This document shows, piece after piece, positions 5,780 to 19,448 of a stretch of DNA of 32,375 nt. The stretch comes from Acidimicrobiia bacterium. GTDB taxonomy: Bacteria > Actinomycetota > Acidimicrobiia > IMCC26256 > PALSA-555. The stretch lies in the NCBI GenBank assembly GCA_035948415.1, contig DASZJD010000004.1, positions 1 to 32,375 of the forward strand, written 5' to 3'. The position numbers were made by a program, and so were the translations under genes. Numbering within the stretch: position 1 is the stretch's first letter; each line of letters starts with the position of its first letter. The notes beneath the pieces were generated by a model. The model had not been told where the DNA came from and did no database searches. It worked only from the letters and a program-made list of their open reading frames with translations.

Positions 5780-7234
5780 CTAGCCGCTCGGTGTCGGCGT
5801 CGCCCGGCAGCAGGACGGCCCCTGGGGCAGCCCCTGCAGCCGCCGCGCCAGCTCCCCGAGCTGGGCCTGCAGCACGCCGACACCCTCGGTGATCGACGCC
5901 GGCAGCGGGCCGGGCGCGTTCGTCGTCGACGGCCCCACCGACGCCGGCGCCGAGGCGTGGCCGCGTCGCGGCGCACCCGCCCAGGCCGCGTCGCGACGCA
6001 CCGTCGGGCCGACGCGTCGGGGCACGGCCGACAGGGCGAAGCGGCCGACGCGCGTCACGGCGTGCCCGCCCTCGCTCCACAGCAGCCGACGGCCCGAGGG
6101 ATCGAAGTAGAACTCGGGGACGACCCGGTTCAGGTTCGTGAGCCGCCGGATGGCGCCGGTCGCGCGGTCGAGCTCGTAGAGGTCGGTGTGGAACCCGGGG
6201 TCGCTGATCGCGAGCACGAACATGGGCCCGAAGGTCTCGTTCTGCAGCGGAGGTCGGAAGCCGAGCTGCTGCGCCGCGGTGACGAACGTCTGGTACCAGG
6301 TCGGGGAGCCCCGGCTCGACATCCAGATCACGTCCCGCATGTCCGGCGTGAACACCGCCTGCTCGTCCCACCCGGTGTTGCCGTCGGTCAGGTGCGTGAC
6401 CAGCGGACGCCCCGGGGCCGCGCCCGGGCCGGCGAGGCGGAGGAAGTACAGCTCGAGGTTCAGCCAGCCCGCCCCGTCCTGGCCCATCGCGGTGTAGAGG
6501 AAGCCGCTGCCGTCGGGTGCCCACACCTGGGTCTCGTAGCCGGTGTCGGTGGCGGGGCCGACCACCCGCAGGTTCGTGAGCTCCGGCGTTCGGCCTCGCC
6601 GCGGGGTGAAGTCGGCGATGAGCATCGTCCACTGGGTGCCGCCGGCGGCGAGATCAGTGAAGCCGACGTGCGTCCAGACCAGGTGCCGCCCGTCCGGCGA
6701 CCACGCCGGGTGGTAGTTGTCGAAGGGCACGCCGCTCGGCTCGAACGGCAGGCCCGGCGCAGTTAGGCGCGTCACGTCGGAGCCGTCCGGGCGCATGACG
6801 TAGAGGTCGGTCCCGACGCCGCCCAGGCACGGCGCGCCGAACGTCACCGAGCTGCCGCGCCACGAGCAGAAGAGGATCCAGTCACCCTGCGGACGCTCCT
6901 GCGGGAAGCCGTTCGGCCCCGGCTGCCCGCAGGTCAGGCACCGGATGGTCGACCCGTCGAGCTTCGACACGTAGACCTGCTCGGTGCCGGAGCCGTCGCG
7001 CTCGTTCGAGAGGACTCGCCCGTCGGGAGCAAAGGACGGGTCCTGCCCGAAGGTGTACCGACCGGTCTCGACCGTGAACGGCGCCGTGAAGTACGGGTTC
7101 GGCCCGCGGGCGGGCGCGCCGAGGCGAGCCGGTCCGGCCCCGCCGATGCTGGCCAGGGCGATCCCCAGGACGACGACCCCGCGGCCCGGTTGCCGCGAGC
7201 GGGTGCCCAGCACGAGCCTCACGTCCCCCCTCAC
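5780..7234 (-). CDS. Secreted TolB/PD40-type beta-propeller protein
   Basis: This 484-residue protein has an N-terminal hydrophobic segment after basic residues (about 12-42, ending ARLGAPA) that looks like a signal peptide. The body contains repeated propeller blades of the WD40-like PD40 type: DPSFAPDGRVLSNERDGSG, HPAWSPDGRHLVWTH, QVWAPDGSGFLYTAMG, AVFTPDMRDVIWMSSRG and FYFDPSGRRLLWSEGG. Four cysteines lie in the second and third blades (CLTCG and a pair about 20 and 30 residues later). The last 60 residues leave the propeller and form a short amphipathic, leucine-rich helix followed by a CC pair. The role is unknown; such propellers usually bind partners or oligosaccharides outside the membrane. 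The start could be GTG 7222 or 7213 instead of 7234. Confidence 0.75.
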   Translation of the reverse strand: MRGDVRLVLGTRSRQPGRGVVVLGIALASIGGAGPARLGAPARGPNPYFTAPFTVETGRYTFGQDPSFAPDGRVLSNERDGSGTEQVYVSKLDGSTIRCLTCGQPGPNGFPQERPQGDWILFCSWRGSSVTFGAPCLGGVGTDLYVMRPDGSDVTRLTAPGLPFEPSGVPFDNYHPAWSPDGRHLVWTHVGFTDLAAGGTQWTMLIADFTPRRGRTPELTNLRVVGPATDTGYETQVWAPDGSGFLYTAMGQDGAGWLNLELYFLRLAGPGAAPGRPLVTHLTDGNTGWDEQAVFTPDMRDVIWMSSRGSPTWYQTFVTAAQQLGFRPPLQNETFGPMFVLAISDPGFHTDLYELDRATGAIRRLTNLNRVVPEFYFDPSGRRLLWSEGGHAVTRVGRFALSAVPRRVGPTVRRDAAWAGAPRRGHASAPASVGPSTTNAPGPLPASITEGVGVLQAQLGELARRLQGLPQGPSCCRATPTPSG

Positions 7235-7944: not shown

Positions 7945-9990
7945 TCAGCCGGTGACGGCGGCGTGCGGCTCGGTGCACGGCTGGCCGCCGCACACGTCGA
8001 CGACGCGTCCGCCACGTCGCAAGAACTCGGACTTCTGGGTCCGCGCCGCCGGCCACGCGCGCGGGTCCTCGTGCGGATCGGTGCCGGTGCGCGGCGGCGC
8101 GTTGGCGGGGGGCGGCGCCGGCGTGCCGCTGTCCCACTCCACGAGCGCCGAGCCGGAGAACGGCGACGGGCCGAGGGTGGGGATGCCCCAGAGCGGGCTG
8201 CGGTCGGGCGACCGTCCCGAGGCCAGCGCCGGGCGGTGGACGGGAGCGCCGATGGTCCGTGCCTCGACCTCGGTCGCGACGTTGGCGACCTGGTGGTCGC
8301 CGAACGCTTCGTGGAGCAGCACGGTGTGTCGGGGCGTGCCCGGGTAGGGCCTGGTCGTGAGATGCTCGGCGTAGCCGTCGGCCTCGCCTCGGTCCCAGAC
8401 CATCTGCTGCAGGCTGATGAGCAGCACGCGGTCGAGCGGGTTCGCGTACGACTGGGCCACGAGCCCGGCGAACGGGTCGTAGTCGCTGCTGCGAGTCTGC
8501 AGCGTGCTGAAGTTCATGCCCGGCACGCCGAGCACGGCCCGACTCCAGTCCTGGGCGACGGCGGTGGTCGCCGCGCCCATGATCCCGCCGAGGCTGTTCC
8601 CGTCGTAGAACAGGTCGCGCCGGTTGATGACGGGGGCACCGGCGGTGTCCCGGAACGCGGGTGCTGACCCCAGCCCGTCGCGCGCGATCAGCAGCCGACC
8701 GAGCATCAACGTGTCGAGGATTCCCTGCTGGAGCCGGTCCGGGACCGACGGGAACCGCGATTCGTCGCTCGCGGTCCCCACGAGGCTGGCGATGTCCTCC
8801 TCGGAGAGGCCGAGCCACCGGGTGGCGCAGAACACGAAGTCGTGCTCGTCGGCCATGGCGCGGACGTTGTCGGCCGTGACCTCGGCTTCGCTGCCGAGCA
8901 GGCCGTGGCCGTAGACCGCCGGGCGGGCCGGGTGGGCGCGGCCGTCGTCGCCCAACGCGGCGCGGGGGATGACGCACCGGAACGGGACGCTGCGGTCCCC
9001 GGCCCGCCGGGGCAGGCCGTCGGGCGCGAGCCGCAGCCGGCTGCCCGGGCCGCCGTCGCCGTCGAGATAGTTCGGGACGGTGAACGTGCCGGTGACGACG
9101 CGGGCGACCCGCGGGTCGGCGCTCGTCGCCGCGTTGGTGACCTGGAAGGCCGGAGCCCGCCCGCGCAGCGCGGCGAAGGCGTCGTCGCGCATGTGCAGCA
9201 TGGGGGCGGCGAGGCTGCGCTCGCTGGCGACGGTGAAGTCCCACGCCAGGTACAGGTCGGACCGGCCGATCCCGACGCGGGCGAGGGTCGCGAAGAGCCG
9301 CTCGAGGCTCGGGCGTCGGGCCTCGACGGCCGCGTCCGTGGTGCGGATCCGGTCGCGGTAGACGCGGAACGCGCTCCCGGCCGAGATCGTGGCCCCGCCG
9401 GCGTCGCGGAGTCGCCGCAGGGCCACCACGACGTGGTGGCCCTCGCCGAAGTTCACGGCCGGCCGCACGATGAGGGTCCGCTGGTCGTCCCCGGGCGCGG
9501 TCTCGTCGAGCTCGGCCCAGAACGGCACCCGGCGGCCGGTGGTGGCGTCCAGGAGCACGATCGGGCTGTCGGGCCGGAGCGAGCTCCCGATGTCGGTGGC
9601 CGGCGCGGCGCCGGTTTGGGCGAGGTCGAGGCCCGGGACGAAGGTCAGCGCCGCCGAGCCGGGGCTGAACCCGTCGTTTCGGTCCCACGCGGTGGGGTCG
9701 ACGGCGACGCCGGCCTGGTTCCGCGGCATCGCCGCGACCTGGAAGTCGATCCGCCGGCCCGTGGCCGTCGAAGGGTCGGCGACGGTGAAGTAGTCGTTCG
9801 GGAACGGAAACAGGCATCGGGCCGGGTCGAGGGGATCGCAGGTGCCGTGCGGCGCCGCCGCGGCCGCGACGGGCGCCGGGCGTGCGATGCCCGTGCCGGC
9901 CTCCGACGCCGCCGCCGGGCCGGCGGCCGTCGCCAGCGTGCCCACGGTCACGACGACGGCCGCGACGCGGGGCCCCCTTCCCCGGTGCAC
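7945..9990 (-). CDS. Large secreted alpha/beta-hydrolase-like protein
   Basis: This 681-residue protein starts with a likely signal peptide (residues 1 to about 30, ending AAAS). An N-terminal all-beta-looking region (about 50-300) containing LFPFPNDYFT precedes a hydrolase-like region. There GHGLLGS at 361-367 could form the oxyanion hole and GNSLGG at 464-469 places a candidate nucleophile at S466. The later FGDHQVANVATE segment may supply an acid/histidine pair. Two paired cysteines (C51/C59) and others fit an extracytoplasmic protein. The final 100 residues are proline-rich and unstructured-looking. I cannot name the family or substrate; an esterase or lipase-like role is inference. The GTG start lies six bases after TACCGT, indicating a leaderless mRNA. 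Confidence 0.7.
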   Translation of the reverse strand: MHRGRGPRVAAVVVTVGTLATAAGPAAASEAGTGIARPAPVAAAAAPHGTCDPLDPARCLFPFPNDYFTVADPSTATGRRIDFQVAAMPRNQAGVAVDPTAWDRNDGFSPGSAALTFVPGLDLAQTGAAPATDIGSSLRPDSPIVLLDATTGRRVPFWAELDETAPGDDQRTLIVRPAVNFGEGHHVVVALRRLRDAGGATISAGSAFRVYRDRIRTTDAAVEARRPSLERLFATLARVGIGRSDLYLAWDFTVASERSLAAPMLHMRDDAFAALRGRAPAFQVTNAATSADPRVARVVTGTFTVPNYLDGDGGPGSRLRLAPDGLPRRAGDRSVPFRCVIPRAALGDDGRAHPARPAVYGHGLLGSEAEVTADNVRAMADEHDFVFCATRWLGLSEEDIASLVGTASDESRFPSVPDRLQQGILDTLMLGRLLIARDGLGSAPAFRDTAGAPVINRRDLFYDGNSLGGIMGAATTAVAQDWSRAVLGVPGMNFSTLQTRSSDYDPFAGLVAQSYANPLDRVLLISLQQMVWDRGEADGYAEHLTTRPYPGTPRHTVLLHEAFGDHQVANVATEVEARTIGAPVHRPALASGRSPDRSPLWGIPTLGPSPFSGSALVEWDSGTPAPPPANAPPRTGTDPHEDPRAWPAARTQKSEFLRRGGRVVDVCGGQPCTEPHAAVTG

Positions 9991-9996
9991 GCGGGG

Positions 9997-10046
9997 ACGG
10001 TAGCCCGCGCGCGGGGCGAAGCGGCTCGGCGCTCCGGGTCTACGGT
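9997..10046. promoter_or_regulatory. Two divergent leaderless promoters (TACCGT minus, TACGGT plus)
   Basis: On the minus strand TACCGT (9997-10002) stands six bases before the GTG at 9990. On the plus strand TACGGT (10041-10046) stands six bases before the ATG at 10053. The two start codons are only 62 bases apart, so the -35 regions of the two genes overlap or interleave. Neither gene has a convincing ribosome site. Confidence 0.55.
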
Positions 10047-10052
10047 GAGGCC

Positions 10053-11384
10053 ATGGCCGCCCCGTCTCGTTCCGACACGCCGTTCTTCCTCGCCGGCAAC
10101 TTCGCGCCCGTCACCGAGGAGGTGACCGCCACCGACCTCGCCGTCACCGGCGCCGTGCCCGCCGAGCTGGCGGGGCGGTTCGTGCGCAACGGGCCGAACC
10201 CCCACGACGGCGTGTCCGCGCACTGGTTCCTCGGCGACGGGATGCTCCACGGCGTCGAGCTGCGCGACGGCCGGGCGCGCTGGTACCGGAACCGCTACGT
10301 GCGGACCAAGCAGCTGAGCGGGGACGGCGCCTTCGTCGGCGACGACGGCCGCGTCGATCACACCGTCGGCGCGGCCAACACCCACGTGATCGGCCACGGC
10401 GGTCGCATCCTCGCCCTCGTCGAGAGCGGGTACCCGTACGAGGTCACGCCCGAGCTCGAGACCCGGGGCTGGTACGACTTCGACGGCCGGCTCCGCACCG
10501 CCATGACCGCGCACCCGAAGCTGGACCCGGACAGCGGGGAGCTCCACTTCTTCGGCTACGGGTTCTTCCCGCCGTACCTCACGTACCACGTCGCCGACCG
10601 CGACGGCGCCCTGGTCCGCAGCGAGGAGATCTCGGTGCCGGGCCCGACGATGATGCACGACTTCAACCTGACCGAGCGCCACGTCGTGTTCATGGACCTG
10701 CCGGTCGTGTTCGACCTCGACCTCGCCATGCAGGGCACGATGCCGTACCGGTGGGACGACGGGTACGGCGCCCGGCTCGGGGTCATGCCGCGCGGGGGGC
10801 GGGACGCGGACGTGCGATGGATCGAGGTCGACCCCTGTTACGTCTTCCACCCGATGAACGCGTACGACGACAACGGCACGATCGTCCTCGACGTCGTCCG
10901 GTACCCACGGCTCTGGGACCGCTCGGGCGACGAGTTCAACCCCGCCCATCTCACGCGCTGGACCGTCGACGTCGCGGCCGGGACCGTGAAGGAGGAGCAG
11001 CTCGACGACCGTTCCACCGAGTTCCCCCGGATCGATCCTCGCCGCGTCGGCCGCCCGCACCGGTACGGGTACGCACTGAAGACGTACGACGGGCTGGGCC
11101 CCAACAGCACCGCGCTGGTGAAGTACGACCAGGTGGACGGGTCGAGCGAGGTCCACGACTTCGGGGCGGGCCGCGAGCCGGCGGAGCCGGTGTTCGTGCC
11201 CCGGACGCCGACCGCGGCCGAAGACGACGGGTGGGTGATGACCTACGTCTACGACGCCGCCCGCGACACCAGCGACTTCGTCGTGCTGGCGGCGACGGAC
11301 TTCACCGCGCCGCCGGTCGCGACCGTGGCGCTGCCCCAGCGGGTGCCGTTCGGCTTCCACGGGTCCTGGATCCCGGACCGCTGA
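10053..11384 (+). CDS. Carotenoid cleavage oxygenase (RPE65 family)
   Basis: Enzymes of this family cleave a double bond in carotenoids, apocarotenoids or stilbenes, using a non-heme iron held by four histidines. The 443-residue protein has the expected length and all four candidate ligands: H154 in TAHPK, H202 in MMHDF, H266 in VFHPMNAYDD and H436 in FHGSWIPD. The N-terminal GRFVRNGPNP and HWFLGDGMLHGVEL motifs (about 41-70) are also diagnostic. No signal peptide is present, so it is cytoplasmic or membrane-associated. No carotenoid biosynthesis gene is nearby, so the substrate is unknown. The ATG is supported by the -10 hexamer six bases upstream. The gene converges on the fusion-protein gene with only 12 bases between their ends. 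Confidence 0.92.
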   Translation: MAAPSRSDTPFFLAGNFAPVTEEVTATDLAVTGAVPAELAGRFVRNGPNPHDGVSAHWFLGDGMLHGVELRDGRARWYRNRYVRTKQLSGDGAFVGDDGRVDHTVGAANTHVIGHGGRILALVESGYPYEVTPELETRGWYDFDGRLRTAMTAHPKLDPDSGELHFFGYGFFPPYLTYHVADRDGALVRSEEISVPGPTMMHDFNLTERHVVFMDLPVVFDLDLAMQGTMPYRWDDGYGARLGVMPRGGRDADVRWIEVDPCYVFHPMNAYDDNGTIVLDVVRYPRLWDRSGDEFNPAHLTRWTVDVAAGTVKEEQLDDRSTEFPRIDPRRVGRPHRYGYALKTYDGLGPNSTALVKYDQVDGSSEVHDFGAGREPAEPVFVPRTPTAAEDDGWVMTYVYDAARDTSDFVVLAATDFTAPPVATVALPQRVPFGFHGSWIPDR

Positions 11385-11396
11385 CCCCGGGCCGGG

Positions 11397-13469
11397 TCAG
11401 TCGGTGCCGGTCAGCCCGCCCCCCGACTGCCCGAACTGGCGGACGACGGCGTCGTAGTTGGGCGTCGCGGGGTGGCGCAGGCCCGCCGGGCCGGCGCCGA
11501 ACGCCGCCAGCACGTTCTTCGTCACCTGCACCGCGACGGGGTCGTACGGCGACGAGGGACCGGGCGGGGTGAGCTTCGGGATCCAGTTGATCGTTCCGGT
11601 GGCGAGCACGGCGGCCCCGCTCGACGCCGTGTAGTACGTCATGTCGGCGAAGCTCGGCTTGCCGTGGCAGACGACCGGCGAGTGGGCGAGCAGCTGGACG
11701 TTGTGGGGGCCCTGCTGGTTCGGGTCGTAGCGGTCGTACTCCGATCCGACCGCGGGCGTCGGGGGCGATCCCGTGGCGGTGAGCTTCTGGCCGGGCCGGG
11801 CGTTCGTGCCCGCGAACACCCACGCGGTCGGGTCGACGATCACCATGTCGGCGCTGACCGGGTTGCACTCGTACTGCTGGCCGATCATCCCGCTCTCGGG
11901 CCGCGCCGCCGGTGCCTCTCGCCAGTTGACCGTGGTCAGGGGCGGGTTCGTGGCGTGGATCGGGTCCTCGTTCGCGGCCTTGTAGCACACCTGGTGTCGG
12001 TTCGGGCCGAGCGACGAGGGCTCGAACCGGATCTGGCGGAAGGACGCGTTGGCGCCGAGGAAGGCGAGGTTGACGCCCTTGTCGCGCGCCGCCTCGACGC
12101 CGTCGCGCATCTCCTTCGACCAGTACTCGTCGTGACCGAGCGAGAAGAAGGCCTTGTGGTTGAGGAGCAGCTGGGGGCGGGCGTGGGTGTCGACGTCGGT
12201 GATGTAGGTCACGTCGAGGCCGAGCTGCTCGATCAGCATGATGAGCGGGAACTCGAGGCCGAGGAAGTCGGCCTGCCCGACCCCGCGGGCGTAGGGACGG
12301 TCGAAGGACACGACCCGGGCGCGGTTCGCGTACGCGCCGTTCGCGCCCTGGTAGAGGTTGTAACCGGACCAGTCGTTGTATGCCTGCCAGCTCGTGACCG
12401 AGTTCTGCACCGCGTACGCGGCCGTGCTGGAGTCGTCGCGCACGGTGAGCGGTACGAGGCCCTGGATGCCGTTCGACCCGACGAGCTTGAAGAGGTAGCA
12501 GCCGGGCGGGTAGCGGGCGTCGATCGTCACGTGCAGGGACGGGTCCCAGCGCGCCTCGGTCATGTTGATCCCGGGCGTGAACGTGGCCGCCGCCTGGCGC
12601 TGGCCCGGCATCTCGGGGGAGCGCCACACCTGCCGGCCCCCGGCCCCCCCGTACCAGCCCAGGCGGTAGGCCTCGACGTGCACCGTCGGCGCGCCGGTGG
12701 ACACGTAGAGGGTGATCGTGTCGCCGCGCTGGGCGCTGACCGCGCTGGCGTAGCCCTCGACGAGGTTGCCGGGGCCCCCGCCGTTGGTGACGTTCCAGGC
12801 CGACGTGCCCGGCTTGGCGTTCTCGTCCTTCACCCACTGGGCCGTGGGCCCGTTCGGTGACGAGCCGGTCGACGACGAACCGCGCCGCGGCGGCTTTGTC
12901 GTCGCCGTCGAGCGCGTGCTCGAGGAGCGCCACGGACGCCAGACCGCCGCGACCACCGCGGCGACCGCGGCGGCGCCGGCGCCGACGAAGGCGCGCCGCG
13001 AGAGCCGCCGGCGCGGCGAGCCCGGCTCGGTCGAGGCCGAGTAGTCGCGGACCCGATGCACGGCCGCCGGCACCGCGAGCTCGGCCTGCAGCGCGGGATC
13101 GAGCTCCGCCCATGGTGTTCGCCGCACCCAGTGCGCGGGCCGCTGATGCCGACGGTTCTCCGGCGCCGCGGCGTCGAAGCGGTACGGCCCGGTTATACGG
13201 CCGAAGGCGACGTCGCGGTCGACCCGGGTGGCGACGAGGTCGTCCTCGCTGATGCCGTGCACGAAGGCCCAGAGGGCGGCGGCCCAGCCGTCGACGACGT
13301 CGGCCGGCGCCTCCGGGTAGGCGGCGCGCAGGGCCCGTCCGACGTCGTCGGGCGACGAGGCGCCGCTGAGGTCTCCGGTGTGCGACCACCCGACCACGGC
13401 GACGTCGTGGCGGAGGGCGTACTCGGCGCGGCGGCCGTCGCGGCCGCCGCCGAGGGACCAGAGGGCCAC
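11397..13469 (-). CDS. Fusion: restriction-associated N-domain, Tat-like segment, DMFase beta-like domain
   Basis: This 690-residue protein joins parts rarely seen together. Residues 1 to about 143 match the domain found at the N-terminus of some Mrr-type restriction proteins and ATPases: WSLGGG near 4, VAVVGWSHTGDLSG at 23-36, LWAFVHGISEDDLVA near 66, FGRITGPYRF at 89-98 and RHQRPAHWV near 107. A Tat-like motif SRRAFVG at 157-163 then leads into an Ala/Val membrane segment to about 177. Residues from about 220 resemble the C-terminal domain of the N,N-dimethylformamidase beta subunit: YRLGWYGGAGGRQVW at 268-282, NDWSGYNLY at 365-373 and GHDEYWS at 445-451. The GTG 13469 start has GAGGAGG nine bases upstream. 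The frame is unbroken across the junctions. If membrane-inserted, the N-domain faces the cytoplasm and the amidase-like part the outside. Function is unknown. Confidence 0.75.
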   Translation of the reverse strand: MALWSLGGGRDGRRAEYALRHDVAVVGWSHTGDLSGASSPDDVGRALRAAYPEAPADVVDGWAAALWAFVHGISEDDLVATRVDRDVAFGRITGPYRFDAAAPENRRHQRPAHWVRRTPWAELDPALQAELAVPAAVHRVRDYSASTEPGSPRRRLSRRAFVGAGAAAVAAVVAAVWRPWRSSSTRSTATTKPPRRGSSSTGSSPNGPTAQWVKDENAKPGTSAWNVTNGGGPGNLVEGYASAVSAQRGDTITLYVSTGAPTVHVEAYRLGWYGGAGGRQVWRSPEMPGQRQAAATFTPGINMTEARWDPSLHVTIDARYPPGCYLFKLVGSNGIQGLVPLTVRDDSSTAAYAVQNSVTSWQAYNDWSGYNLYQGANGAYANRARVVSFDRPYARGVGQADFLGLEFPLIMLIEQLGLDVTYITDVDTHARPQLLLNHKAFFSLGHDEYWSKEMRDGVEAARDKGVNLAFLGANASFRQIRFEPSSLGPNRHQVCYKAANEDPIHATNPPLTTVNWREAPAARPESGMIGQQYECNPVSADMVIVDPTAWVFAGTNARPGQKLTATGSPPTPAVGSEYDRYDPNQQGPHNVQLLAHSPVVCHGKPSFADMTYYTASSGAAVLATGTINWIPKLTPPGPSSPYDPVAVQVTKNVLAAFGAGPAGLRHPATPNYDAVVRQFGQSGGGLTGTD

Positions 13470-13587
13470 GCTCAGCTGCCTCCTCGGGGCGTGCGGCCGG
13501 TGCGGGCCGATCGACGGTCGGCCGGAGGGCGGCGGTCGTCCGGGGCGCCCCGGCCGTCTCCCGCTCTGGACCCTCGCGGCCCTCGGC

Positions 13588-15646: not shown

Positions 15647-15719
15647 AACGTAGACCGGCGTCGCCCGCCGCCAGCGCAGGTCTGGCGGCACGGCGCGGCC
15701 GAACGGACCCCAATAGAGT
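15647..15719. promoter_or_regulatory. Divergent leaderless promoters (TACGTT minus, TAGAGT plus)
   Basis: On the minus strand TACGTT (15647-15652) is six bases before GTG 15640. On the plus strand TAGAGT (15714-15719) is seven bases before GTG 15727. Both genes lack Shine-Dalgarno sequences, so the 86 bases between the start codons hold both promoters. Confidence 0.55.
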
Positions 15720-15726
15720 GGAAGCC

Positions 15727-16995
15727 GTGGTGGCCACCCCGACCACGGACGTGCCCGTCGACGCCATCGACTTCGGGGACATCGCGCTGTGGGAGCGCGA
15801 CGACTGGCCCGGGATGTTCGCCGTCCTGCGCGAGCACCGACCGGTCTCCTGGCACACCGAGCCCGAGATCCCAGGCCTGACCTTCGGCGAGGGCCCGGGG
15901 TTCTGGTCGCTGGTCCGCTACGACGACATCGTCCACGCCAGCCGCAACCCCGAGGTGTTCATCTCCGGGCGGGGGACGAACATCCCGGACTTCCCGCCCG
16001 AGGTCTACGAGTTCCTCGGCTCCATGATCAACATGGACCCGCCCCGGCACACGCGCTTCCGGCTCCTCGTGAACCGCGGCTTCACGCCCCGGCAGGTCGG
16101 CGCCATCGAGGAGAGCGTCCACGAGCGGGCCCGGGCGATCGTGGACGGGATCGCGAGCAAGGGCACCTGCGACTTCGTGAGCGAGATCGCGGCGGCGCTG
16201 CCCCTGCAGATCATCTGCGACATGATGGGGATCCCCGAGCCCGACTACCAGTGGGTCTTCGACAAGACCAACGTCGTGCTCGGTGCCAGCGACCCCGAGT
16301 ACGGCGGGGAGATCACCGCCGCGTTCCTGGCCGCGCAGGAGCTGTGGCGGTACGCGCAGGAGCTCCGGGACGAGCGGCTCCGGGCCCCCCGCGACGACAT
16401 CACGACGACGATCTCCCAGGCCGAGGTGGACGGCCACAGCCTGACCCCCGAGGAGTTCGGCTCCTTCTTCGTGCTGCTCGTCGTGGCCGGCAACGAGACC
16501 ACCCGCAACGCCATCAGCCACGGGATGCTGGCGCTCACCGACAACCCAGACCAGCGGCGCCACTGGCTCGCCGACTTCGAGGGGGTCGCGCCGACCGCGG
16601 TGGAGGAGATCATCCGCTGGGCGACGCCCGTCATCCACTTCCGCCGCACCTGCGTGGCGCGGGACGTGGAGATCGACGGCACCCCGATCGGGGAGGGGCA
16701 GAAGGTCGTCCTCTGGTACAACTCCGCGAACCGCGACGACCGCTACTTCGAGGACCCGTACCGCTTCGACGTGCGCCGCACCCCGAACGAGCATCTCGGC
16801 TTCGGTGGCGGTGGACCGCACTTCTGCTTGGGTGCGCACCTCGCCCGGCGTGAGATCAAGGTCATGTTCGAGGAGCTGTTCCGCCGCCTGCCCGACATCG
16901 AGGTGTCGGGCGAGCCCGAGCTGCTGCGCTCGAACTTCATCCACGGCATCAAGCGGATGCCGGTCTCGTTCTCGGCTCCACGCTCGAACGGTTGA
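15727..16995 (+). CDS. Cytochrome P450 (CYP125/CYP124-like class)
   Basis: This 422-residue soluble P450 inserts one oxygen atom into an unactivated C-H bond using electrons from a ferredoxin. It has the I-helix motif AGNETT (E257, T258), the K-helix ExxR pair E294-R297 in EIIRW, and the heme loop FGGGGPHFCLG with the cysteine ligand C367. The INMDPPRHTRFR stretch and the RGFTPRQ motif are typical of the actinobacterial group that includes the steroid/fatty-acid hydroxylases CYP124, CYP125 and CYP142. Which subgroup it belongs to needs a tree. No ferredoxin gene is adjacent. The GTG at 15727 is chosen because TAGAGT ends seven bases upstream; GTG 15730 is equally possible. Confidence 0.93.
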   Translation: MVATPTTDVPVDAIDFGDIALWERDDWPGMFAVLREHRPVSWHTEPEIPGLTFGEGPGFWSLVRYDDIVHASRNPEVFISGRGTNIPDFPPEVYEFLGSMINMDPPRHTRFRLLVNRGFTPRQVGAIEESVHERARAIVDGIASKGTCDFVSEIAAALPLQIICDMMGIPEPDYQWVFDKTNVVLGASDPEYGGEITAAFLAAQELWRYAQELRDERLRAPRDDITTTISQAEVDGHSLTPEEFGSFFVLLVVAGNETTRNAISHGMLALTDNPDQRRHWLADFEGVAPTAVEEIIRWATPVIHFRRTCVARDVEIDGTPIGEGQKVVLWYNSANRDDRYFEDPYRFDVRRTPNEHLGFGGGGPHFCLGAHLARREIKVMFEELFRRLPDIEVSGEPELLRSNFIHGIKRMPVSFSAPRSNG

Positions 16996-17328: not shown

Positions 17329-18534
17329 TCAGGAGCGGCCGAACTCCACCGGGATCTCACGGTAGGCGCAGGCGAAGGCGCTCGGCACCTTCGTCGGCTC
17401 GGCGCCGGGCGCCAGCCGCAGGGGCGGAAGCCGGCGCAGGAGCTCCTCGAACATCACCCGGATCTCGAGGCGGGCCAGCGACGCCCCGAGGCAGAAGTGG
17501 GTGCCGAACCCGAACGCCACGTGGTGGTTGTGGGCCCGGGTCACGTCGAGGGTGTCCGGTTCGTCGAAGGCCCGCTCATCGCGGTTCGCGGACCCGTACA
17601 TGAGGAGCAGCTCGTCACCGGCGCCGATGGTCTCGCCGTGGAGCTCGTGGTCGTGGGTGGCGGTGCGCCGCATGTTCAGGATGGGCGTGACCCAGCGGAT
17701 GAACTCCTCGACCCCGGTGTCGGCGAGGATGCCGGGGTCGGCGGCGAGCGCGGCCCGCTGGTCCGGGTGCCGGATCAGCTCGAGGCACATGGTGCCGATG
17801 ACGGTGCGCGTGGTCTCGGCGCCGCCGTCGAGGAGCAGGAGCGCCTCGTGGACGATCTCGTCCTCGTTGAGCGGACGGCTGCTGCCGTCGGGGAACTCGA
17901 CGTCGGCGTGGGCCCAGACCGAGAGCAGGTCGTCGCGGGGCTCGCGGCGTCGGGCCTCGAGCGTCTCGAGGGCGACCGCGGCGAACTCGAGGACGGCCTC
18001 CATCGTGGCCTCGCCCGCCTGCGGCTCGCCCCCGTCCGTCGGGTAGGTGCCGCCCGAGAGCATGGTCACCTCGGACCACTCCTGGCAGCGCGGGGCGAGC
18101 TCGGCCGGGAAGCCGAGCATCTCGCAGATCACCCGGGCGGGGAGCGGGGCCGCGAGGTCGTGGACCACCTCGCAGCTCCCCGCGGCTGCGACCCGTCCGA
18201 TGAGGTCGGCGGCCACGGCCCGAACCTGGTCCTCGTGCTGCTTGACCGATCGGGGGGTGAAGCGGCGCGCCACCAGCCGGCGCTTGTTCTGGTGGAGCGG
18301 GTCGTCGTTGTTGATCGAGGACACGTCGCCGACGATGCGGGGGCGCGACCCGAGCGCCGACGTGTACCGGGCGGGATCCTTCTCGACCTCGACGACGTCG
18401 TGGTAGCGGCTGATCCCCCAGATCCCGTTCCGCTCGTCGCGGTACAGGGGGGCCTCGTCGCGCAGCTGTCGGTAGAGGGGCCCCGGGTCGGCGGCGTAGA
18501 GGCTCCCGTCGAGCAGGTTGGCCTCGATGCCCAC
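17329..18534 (-). CDS. Cytochrome P450
   Basis: This second P450 has 401 residues. The I-helix contains DGGAETTR, the K-helix has EFIRW (ExxR), and the heme loop is FGFGTHFCLG with the cysteine ligand C348. The segment INNDDPLHQNKRRLVARRFTPRS is comparable to the oxygenase group containing CYP142 and CYP125, but the subfamily is uncertain. All catalytic landmarks are present. GTG 18534 is chosen because GAGGAG ends six bases upstream. The gene converges on the first P450 gene and diverges from the EEP-family gene. The two P450s are not close copies of each other, so they are probably not a recent duplication. The natural substrate and redox partner are not indicated by the neighbourhood. Confidence 0.93.
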   Translation of the reverse strand: MGIEANLLDGSLYAADPGPLYRQLRDEAPLYRDERNGIWGISRYHDVVEVEKDPARYTSALGSRPRIVGDVSSINNDDPLHQNKRRLVARRFTPRSVKQHEDQVRAVAADLIGRVAAAGSCEVVHDLAAPLPARVICEMLGFPAELAPRCQEWSEVTMLSGGTYPTDGGEPQAGEATMEAVLEFAAVALETLEARRREPRDDLLSVWAHADVEFPDGSSRPLNEDEIVHEALLLLDGGAETTRTVIGTMCLELIRHPDQRAALAADPGILADTGVEEFIRWVTPILNMRRTATHDHELHGETIGAGDELLLMYGSANRDERAFDEPDTLDVTRAHNHHVAFGFGTHFCLGASLARLEIRVMFEELLRRLPPLRLAPGAEPTKVPSAFACAYREIPVEFGRS

Positions 18535-18590
18535 GTGCACCTCCTCGGCGCGCCGCCGCGGGGCCGGTCCGGTCGGCGTCGCGGGACGGC

Positions 18591-18600
18591 AGGTTAGTGT
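18591..18600. promoter_or_regulatory. Overlapping divergent -10 elements (TAACCT minus, TAGTGT plus)
   Basis: TAACCT on the minus strand (18591-18596) would start the P450 mRNA near 18584, with a leader of about 50 bases carrying its ribosome site. TAGTGT on the plus strand (18595-18600) is eight bases before GTG 18609. The two hexamers share two bases, so the promoters probably exclude each other. Confidence 0.4.
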
Positions 18601-18608
18601 CGGCCCGC

Positions 18609-19448
18609 GTGAGCGCCGCGTGGGAGGCCCCGCCACGCGTCGACACCCGGCTCTCGATCCTCAGCTGGAACCTGTGGTGGCGGTTCGGTCCGTGGGAGTC
18701 ACGCCAGCCGGCGATCGCCGCCACCCTCCAGCGGCTCGCTCCCGACGTCGTCTGCCTCCAGGAGGTGTGGGCGAGCCGTGACGGCGAGGACCAGGCCGAG
18801 CAGCTCGCCGCCGCCCTCGGCGGCTACCACGTCGCGCACGCCGCCGGCGTCGGCTTCGACCTCACCCCCCACAGCCTCGGCAACGCGGTGCTGTCCCGCT
18901 GGCCCATCCGGGCCCACGAGGCGCGGCCGCTCCCGGCCCCGCCGGGCCTCGACGAGCTCCGGGTGGTGCTCCGGGCCCAGATCGACGGGCCGCGGGGCCC
19001 GGTCGAGGTCTTCGTCACGCACCTGAACTGGCGGCTGGACCAGAGCGACGTCCGCCAGGACCAGGTGCGGGCGATCTGCGCCTTCGTGGCCGAGACCGGC
19101 GCCGACCGGACCTTCCCGCCCGTGCTCTGCGGCGACTTCAACGCCGAGCCCGGCTCCGACGAGGTCCGGATGCTGACCGGCCTCGCCGCGGTGCCGGTGC
19201 CGAAGCTCGTGTTCCTCGACGCCTGGCGCGCCGCCGGCGACGGCGGCCCCGGCCACACCTGGTCCAACGCCAACCCGTTCGCGGCCCTGGACTGCGAGCC
19301 GGACCGGCGCATCGACTACGTGCTCGTCGGCTACCCCCGGGACCACGGGGCCGGGCAGGTGGTGGCCGCCCGGGTCGAGGCCGTCGCGCCCGTCGACGGG
19401 GTGCAGCCCTCGGACCACTACGCCGTGTTCGCCGAGCTCCGCTACTGA
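18609..19448 (+). CDS. Endonuclease/exonuclease/phosphatase (EEP) family protein
   Basis: The fold is that of DNase I, exonuclease III, sphingomyelinase and inositol-phosphate phosphatases, which cleave phosphoesters with divalent metal. The 279-residue protein has LSWNLWW near the N-terminus (substrate and metal Asn), VCLQEVW (metal Glu), FVTHLNWR (catalytic His region), CGDFNAEPGSDEV (Asp and Asn), RRIDYVLV (Asp) and a terminal SDHYAVFAEL (catalytic His). All landmark residues are present, so it is likely active. There is no signal peptide. The exact substrate, DNA, phospholipid or nucleotide, cannot be told. GTG 18609 fits the upstream -10 hexamer better than GTG 18597. Confidence 0.88.
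   Translation: MSAAWEAPPRVDTRLSILSWNLWWRFGPWESRQPAIAATLQRLAPDVVCLQEVWASRDGEDQAEQLAAALGGYHVAHAAGVGFDLTPHSLGNAVLSRWPIRAHEARPLPAPPGLDELRVVLRAQIDGPRGPVEVFVTHLNWRLDQSDVRQDQVRAICAFVAETGADRTFPPVLCGDFNAEPGSDEVRMLTGLAAVPVPKLVFLDAWRAAGDGGPGHTWSNANPFAALDCEPDRRIDYVLVGYPRDHGAGQVVAARVEAVAPVDGVQPSDHYAVFAELRY

Follow-up and report, generated by a model that had tools for sequence, protein, structure and literature searches.

A single gene in the 32,375-nucleotide stretch of DNA analysed here (the window) encodes a protein made of an N-domain related to restriction proteins, a Tat-like membrane segment and a C-domain of the N,N-dimethylformamidase (DMFase) beta type. The parts listed in the original prediction were correctly named, and the layout is real, as demonstrated by the family matches of the individual parts and by a reading frame of the same construction in a second species of the genus, henceforth referred to as G001. 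The gene is a narrow, genus-level fusion seen in two species and is not a widespread system; each of its parts is known, and it is their combination that is rare. The reading to which we give somewhat better than an even chance is a genus-specific fusion in which a membrane-anchored, exported, iron-amidohydrolase-like protein carries a co-opted cytoplasmic reader-type domain. The coordinates of the gene and its parts are provided in Table 1.

Table 1 Position of the fusion gene and of its predicted parts in the window.
Feature	Residues	Window positions	Strand	Remarks
Fusion gene		11397..13469	minus	690 aa + stop (stop included in coordinates); GTG start at 13469
Ribosome-binding site GAGGAGG		13479..13485	minus	Nine bases upstream of GTG; read from upstream sequence
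N-domain, PDC-S02 / restriction reader type	1-143	13041..13469	minus	Predicted alpha/beta fold, weak YTH/EVE resemblance
Tat-like twin-arginine and hydrophobic segment	156-182	12924..13004	minus	TIGR01409; conserved GRRKF in G001
Linker, low-complexity Ser/Thr/Pro/Arg, predicted disordered	183-206	12852..12923	minus	pLDDT
Ig-like part, equivalent of DMFase domain I without pentraxin insertion	~207-350	12420..12851	minus	
DMFase domain III-like part	~351-676	11442..12419	minus	PF20254, HMM alignment to 6lvb, Foldseek

In this genome, 98% complete, the fusion gene occurs once. One unbroken 690-residue frame with a good ribosome site had been predicted, with no strand given, and both were evident on the minus strand, where the GTG start is preceded by GAGGAGG. 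Third-position GC lies between 0.86 and 1.00 along all 690 residues, and upstream of the GTG the coding pattern breaks down. An assembly chimera or a chance frame was excluded by the second genome of the genus, which holds the same three-part frame.

Among 149 relatives, and then 58 genomes of the order, only the G001 protein aligned over residues 1-676 in one frame, with 59% identity and few indels. The G001 copy has its own ribosome site and encodes the same three parts in the same order. By part, identity was 43% in the N-domain, 59% in the Tat segment, 58% in the Ig-like part and 70% in the catalytic part. The N-domain is the fastest-evolving folded part, its codon positions 1 and 2 having changed nearly as much as position 3, and given this faster evolution the constraint on it may be loose.

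In the same searches, some match was observed in 30 other genomes of the order. Outside G001, no C-domain match in the order reached across the N-domain, and where the N-domain was matched, in a few cases, it belonged to a separate protein without DMFA2. The N-domain was likewise absent from all 55 DMFA2-like loci of the named genome collection, a tblastn search with it over all loci fetched for the C-domain gave matches in the window and G001 only, and none of the unfused DMFA2-like homologues was found to have a free-standing N-domain gene next to it. Conservation of the three-part order in other genomes, which the original prediction had left to be established, was observed in one congener and in no other DMFA2-like homologue found. 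Homologues that always start at the Tat motif had been named in advance as evidence against the layout. The other DMFA2-like homologues do lack the N-domain and mostly begin shortly before the Tat or hydrophobic segment, but the G001 copy is fused. Nearly all unfused homologues with a complete 5' end have a single hydrophobic segment at the N-terminus together with a basic n-region, and several have a twin-arginine motif. In tree analyses, the two fused C-domains were sister rows (support 99/96) and the two fused N-domains paired with weak support (83/77), a pattern consistent with one fusion event. Most simply, the parts were joined once, in an ancestor common to the genus.

The tie between the N-domain and restriction proteins, proposed earlier, held in the profile search that had been suggested as a check: residues 2-129 match PDC-S02 (E 1e-21), a candidate defence family of Mrr-type restriction in PADLOC. 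Family or profile matches to the N-domain were found in about 30 genomes each among 296 genomes of the class and 396 genomes of the phylum. In about 45 other proteins, the N-domain is coupled to an Mrr nuclease, a McrB-type AAA+ domain, a PDDEXK-like domain or a zinc ribbon, or is stand-alone; these partner names were read from the sequences by the author, and only PDC-S02 rests on a model match. A membrane segment after the N-domain was seen in none of these ~45 proteins and is confined to the two fused ones, while one other high hydropathy value among N-domain proteins came from a frame running through a frameshifted gene. At one locus (L089, G047:C1:1456358-1457378), a PDC-S02 Mrr gene shows an apparent frameshift split between N-domain and nuclease domain. 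The N-domain was not found in phages, and plasmids yielded the C-domain only.

No Pfam family covers the N-domain, with no Pfam EVE or YTH match, and PDB sequence searches using the single sequence or a profile returned nothing meaningful. An AlphaFold model of the N-domain built from 15 homologues reached a pLDDT of 93.7. The same region is poor in the full-length model because only two alignment rows cover it. The top PDB matches of the N-domain model by Foldseek were YTH domains, the best being YTHDF2 (prob 0.99, E 2.7e-3, TM 0.38-0.45), and EVE (2eve) ranked below them. The N-domain may fairly be described as of the restriction reader type and probably PUA-like, and it might bind modified bases. 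Both fused copies retain residues F69, D77, Y96 and W114, which are invariant in the N-domain alignment. Neither has the P-x-K/R motif of the Mrr and McrB versions; with its basic residue lacking, an intact nucleic-acid sensor becomes less likely.

The predicted C-terminal domain of N,N-dimethylformamidase beta type was recovered by a match of residues 265-634 to Pfam PF20254 DMFA2_C (E 5.6e-113, 378.6 bits against a cut-off of 27), within homology that spans about 207-676. A profile of 36 homologues finds 6lvb (DMFase, E 2e-28) and 8i5a (N-acetyl-(R)-beta-phenylalanine acylase, E 3e-29), and Foldseek analysis of the full-length model returned 8huy (E 3e-19) and 6lvb (E 4e-18). The pentraxin-like domain II is absent, nothing being aligned to DMFase residues ~42-337. 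In DMFase, iron is liganded by Y399, Y440 and E521, and H519 is required (PMC7686228). Upon HMM alignment to 6lvb with exact numbering, Y364, H446 and E448 sit at DMFase Y399, H519 and E521, respectively. DMFase Y440 has no settled equivalent; the conserved Y373 aligns with Y435, five residues away. H446, E448 and Y373 are conserved in at least 90% of the 36 homologues. The protein is a DMFA2_C family member with a plausible metal site, for which the name DMFase is not warranted. An exported DMFA2-like protein with a described activity or substrate was not found for this clade.

Several features of the wider DMFA2-like set were also recorded. In cyanobacteria (L042-L071), a long repeat-like sequence precedes the DMFA2-like domain, and a homologue on a Paenarthrobacter plasmid is annotated DUF4082; other recurrent DMFA2-like fusions thus exist. 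Four homologues contain an in-frame stop or split matches (L017 in G011, L019 in G053, L028 in G065 and L030 in G076), and these are possibly decayed genes or assembly errors.

The Tat-like membrane segment with SRRAFVG was also confirmed, in that the SRRAF motif (S-R-R-x-F) is plainly readable and TIGR01409 matches at 156-182, though its 15.0 bits are just under the curated cut-off of 16.7. GRRKF occupies the same place in G001. Residues ~159-178 are the most hydrophobic stretch of the fusion protein. The RR-x-F motif, the modest hydropathy and the arginine directly after the segment fit Tat and the Sec-avoidance charges described in PMC5449189. TatC is present in the genome as the start of a gene at a contig end, which cuts it, with a score over the cut-off. 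The signal is not located at a free N-terminus, since ~155 residues precede it and there is no good internal start. For Tat, it is unusual that a folded region of about 150 residues comes ahead of the signal. Polytopic Tat proteins are known to have twin-arginine segments in internal positions, where they follow Sec-inserted helices (PMC5449189). In the full-length predicted model, pLDDT is below 50 for residues 141-204. Where the hydrophobic segment ends, V-x-A-type sites were read by eye, and the two halves of the fusion protein may be separated by signal peptidase.

The neighbours of the fusion gene in the window are metabolic, comprising a carotenoid-oxygenase-like gene, a thioesterase, a methyltransferase and P450s, and no defence genes lie beside it. 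No Mrr catalytic domain (Mrr_cat) was detected in the genome, and the fusion protein itself gave no match to Mrr_cat or to the McrB AAA+ domain. A defence island or restriction operon was ruled out by these metabolic neighbours and by the lack of Mrr in the genome, and no sign of a defence system was seen. A conserved neighbourhood was also rejected. Within 19 kb around the G001 copy, the fusion gene is the only gene in common with the window, and the 131 neighbours of unfused homologues belong to general metabolic families with no common theme. A homologue on a Streptomyces plasmid adjoins an LCP-family gene, which is the only pointer to the cell wall. The carotenoid-oxygenase-like gene (9882-11384, plus strand; PF03055 RPE65, E 1.5e-130) is convergent with the fusion gene. 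Two cytochrome P450 genes lie near each other on opposite strands (15718-16995, plus; 17329-18636, minus). A 681-residue frame at 7945-9990 (minus) has coding-like composition and no Pfam match, and the adjoining frame at 5780-7234 has one PD40 repeat match.

The most probable function is that of an amidohydrolase that is exported and carries a co-opted cytoplasmic domain. The fusion product would sit in the membrane, N-terminus inside and C-terminus outside, and would have arisen when a gene fusion within the genus put a folded cytoplasmic domain before a Tat or signal-anchor segment. In unfused relatives, the DMFA2-type domain is anchored by a short N-terminal segment of either kind. The exported, iron-dependent amidohydrolase-like domain would probably hydrolyse an amide, whether in the cell envelope or in the medium. 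The captured N-domain would most likely serve as a co-opted module that contacts nucleic acid or a protein partner and thereby places or regulates the enzyme, and would be no part of a restriction system.

The faster evolution of the N-domain, its absence from all other relatives and the V-x-A-type sites are also what would be expected if it were a mere extended, folded n-region that either stays in place or is removed by signal peptidase, with the amidohydrolase working as in unfused relatives. The length and the fold-defining residues of the N-domain are, however, kept in both species beyond the needs of a spacer, and we regard this explanation as unlikely, albeit one that carries real weight. 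A further way to an enzyme of the usual kind would be translation that begins within the gene, shortly upstream of the Tat segment, the upstream part not being co-translated. GTG codons do occur inside the frame at residues 133 and 137 in the window and at residues 143 and 160 in G001, but no Shine-Dalgarno-like sequence accompanies these candidate starts in either genome, whereas both full-length starts have one. The N-domain is moreover coding in frame and conserved in both species, and the production of two separate products is considered very improbable.

Alternatively, the N-domain could form the inner half of a protein that signals across the membrane or acts as a guard: as a cytoplasmic reader, it would sense modified nucleic acid, for example that of a phage, and alter the outer enzyme such that infection changes the envelope. 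Such a transmembrane sensor is possible, the one argument for it being the ancestry of the N-domain: the family is tied to restriction proteins, EVE/YTH-McrB fusions have been described (PMC7641849), and the four invariant residues persist in both fused copies. A lone segment of weak hydrophobicity with a flexible linker behind it would nevertheless transmit a signal poorly, both copies lack the P-x-K/R motif of the restriction versions, and the neighbours differ between the two species and do not form a defence neighbourhood. The guard protein was accordingly judged rather improbable. We similarly consider it quite unlikely that the fusion represents a novel type of transmembrane protein whose inside reader of modified nucleic acid controls or positions an iron amidohydrolase that is Tat-exported behind a folded cytoplasmic domain.

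Restriction-enzyme reader domains are usually seen as components of defence inside the cell. If conserved, a fusion of this kind to an exported enzyme would be a case of their reuse at the membrane, as PcdA is for cell division, and a test of whether Tat handles a signal located behind a folded cytoplasmic domain. The homologues also suggest that exported DMFA2-like proteins form a large, uncharacterised group in which the metal site is likely intact.

Compared with known systems, the fusion protein shares its Ig-like and domain III-like parts with the DMFase large subunit (6lvb; PMC7686228) and with N-acetyl-(R)-beta-phenylalanine acylase (8huy), but lacks the pentraxin domain and has an export segment and an extra N-domain. 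Its N-domain is shared with the PDC-S02 and Mrr-type restriction proteins of PADLOC, from which it differs in having a membrane segment in place of the nuclease domain and no defence context. EVE/YTH-fused McrB-type GTPases (PMC7641849, PMC11090510) offer another comparison, since in other actinobacteria the N-domain family of the fusion protein precedes McrB-like AAA+ domains; the fusion protein carries an exported enzyme-like domain in place of the AAA+. PcdA of Staphylococcus (PMC10602043) exemplifies a restriction-type EVE protein that has taken on a function outside defence; unlike the fusion protein, it has two EVE domains, a degenerate McrB NTPase and a role in cell division, with no exported domain. 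Actinobacterial Rieske proteins, one example of Tat-dependent membrane proteins (PMC5449189), likewise bear a twin-arginine motif away from the free N-terminus and an exported cofactor domain, but their motif is preceded by Sec-inserted membrane helices, and that of the fusion protein by a folded cytoplasmic domain.
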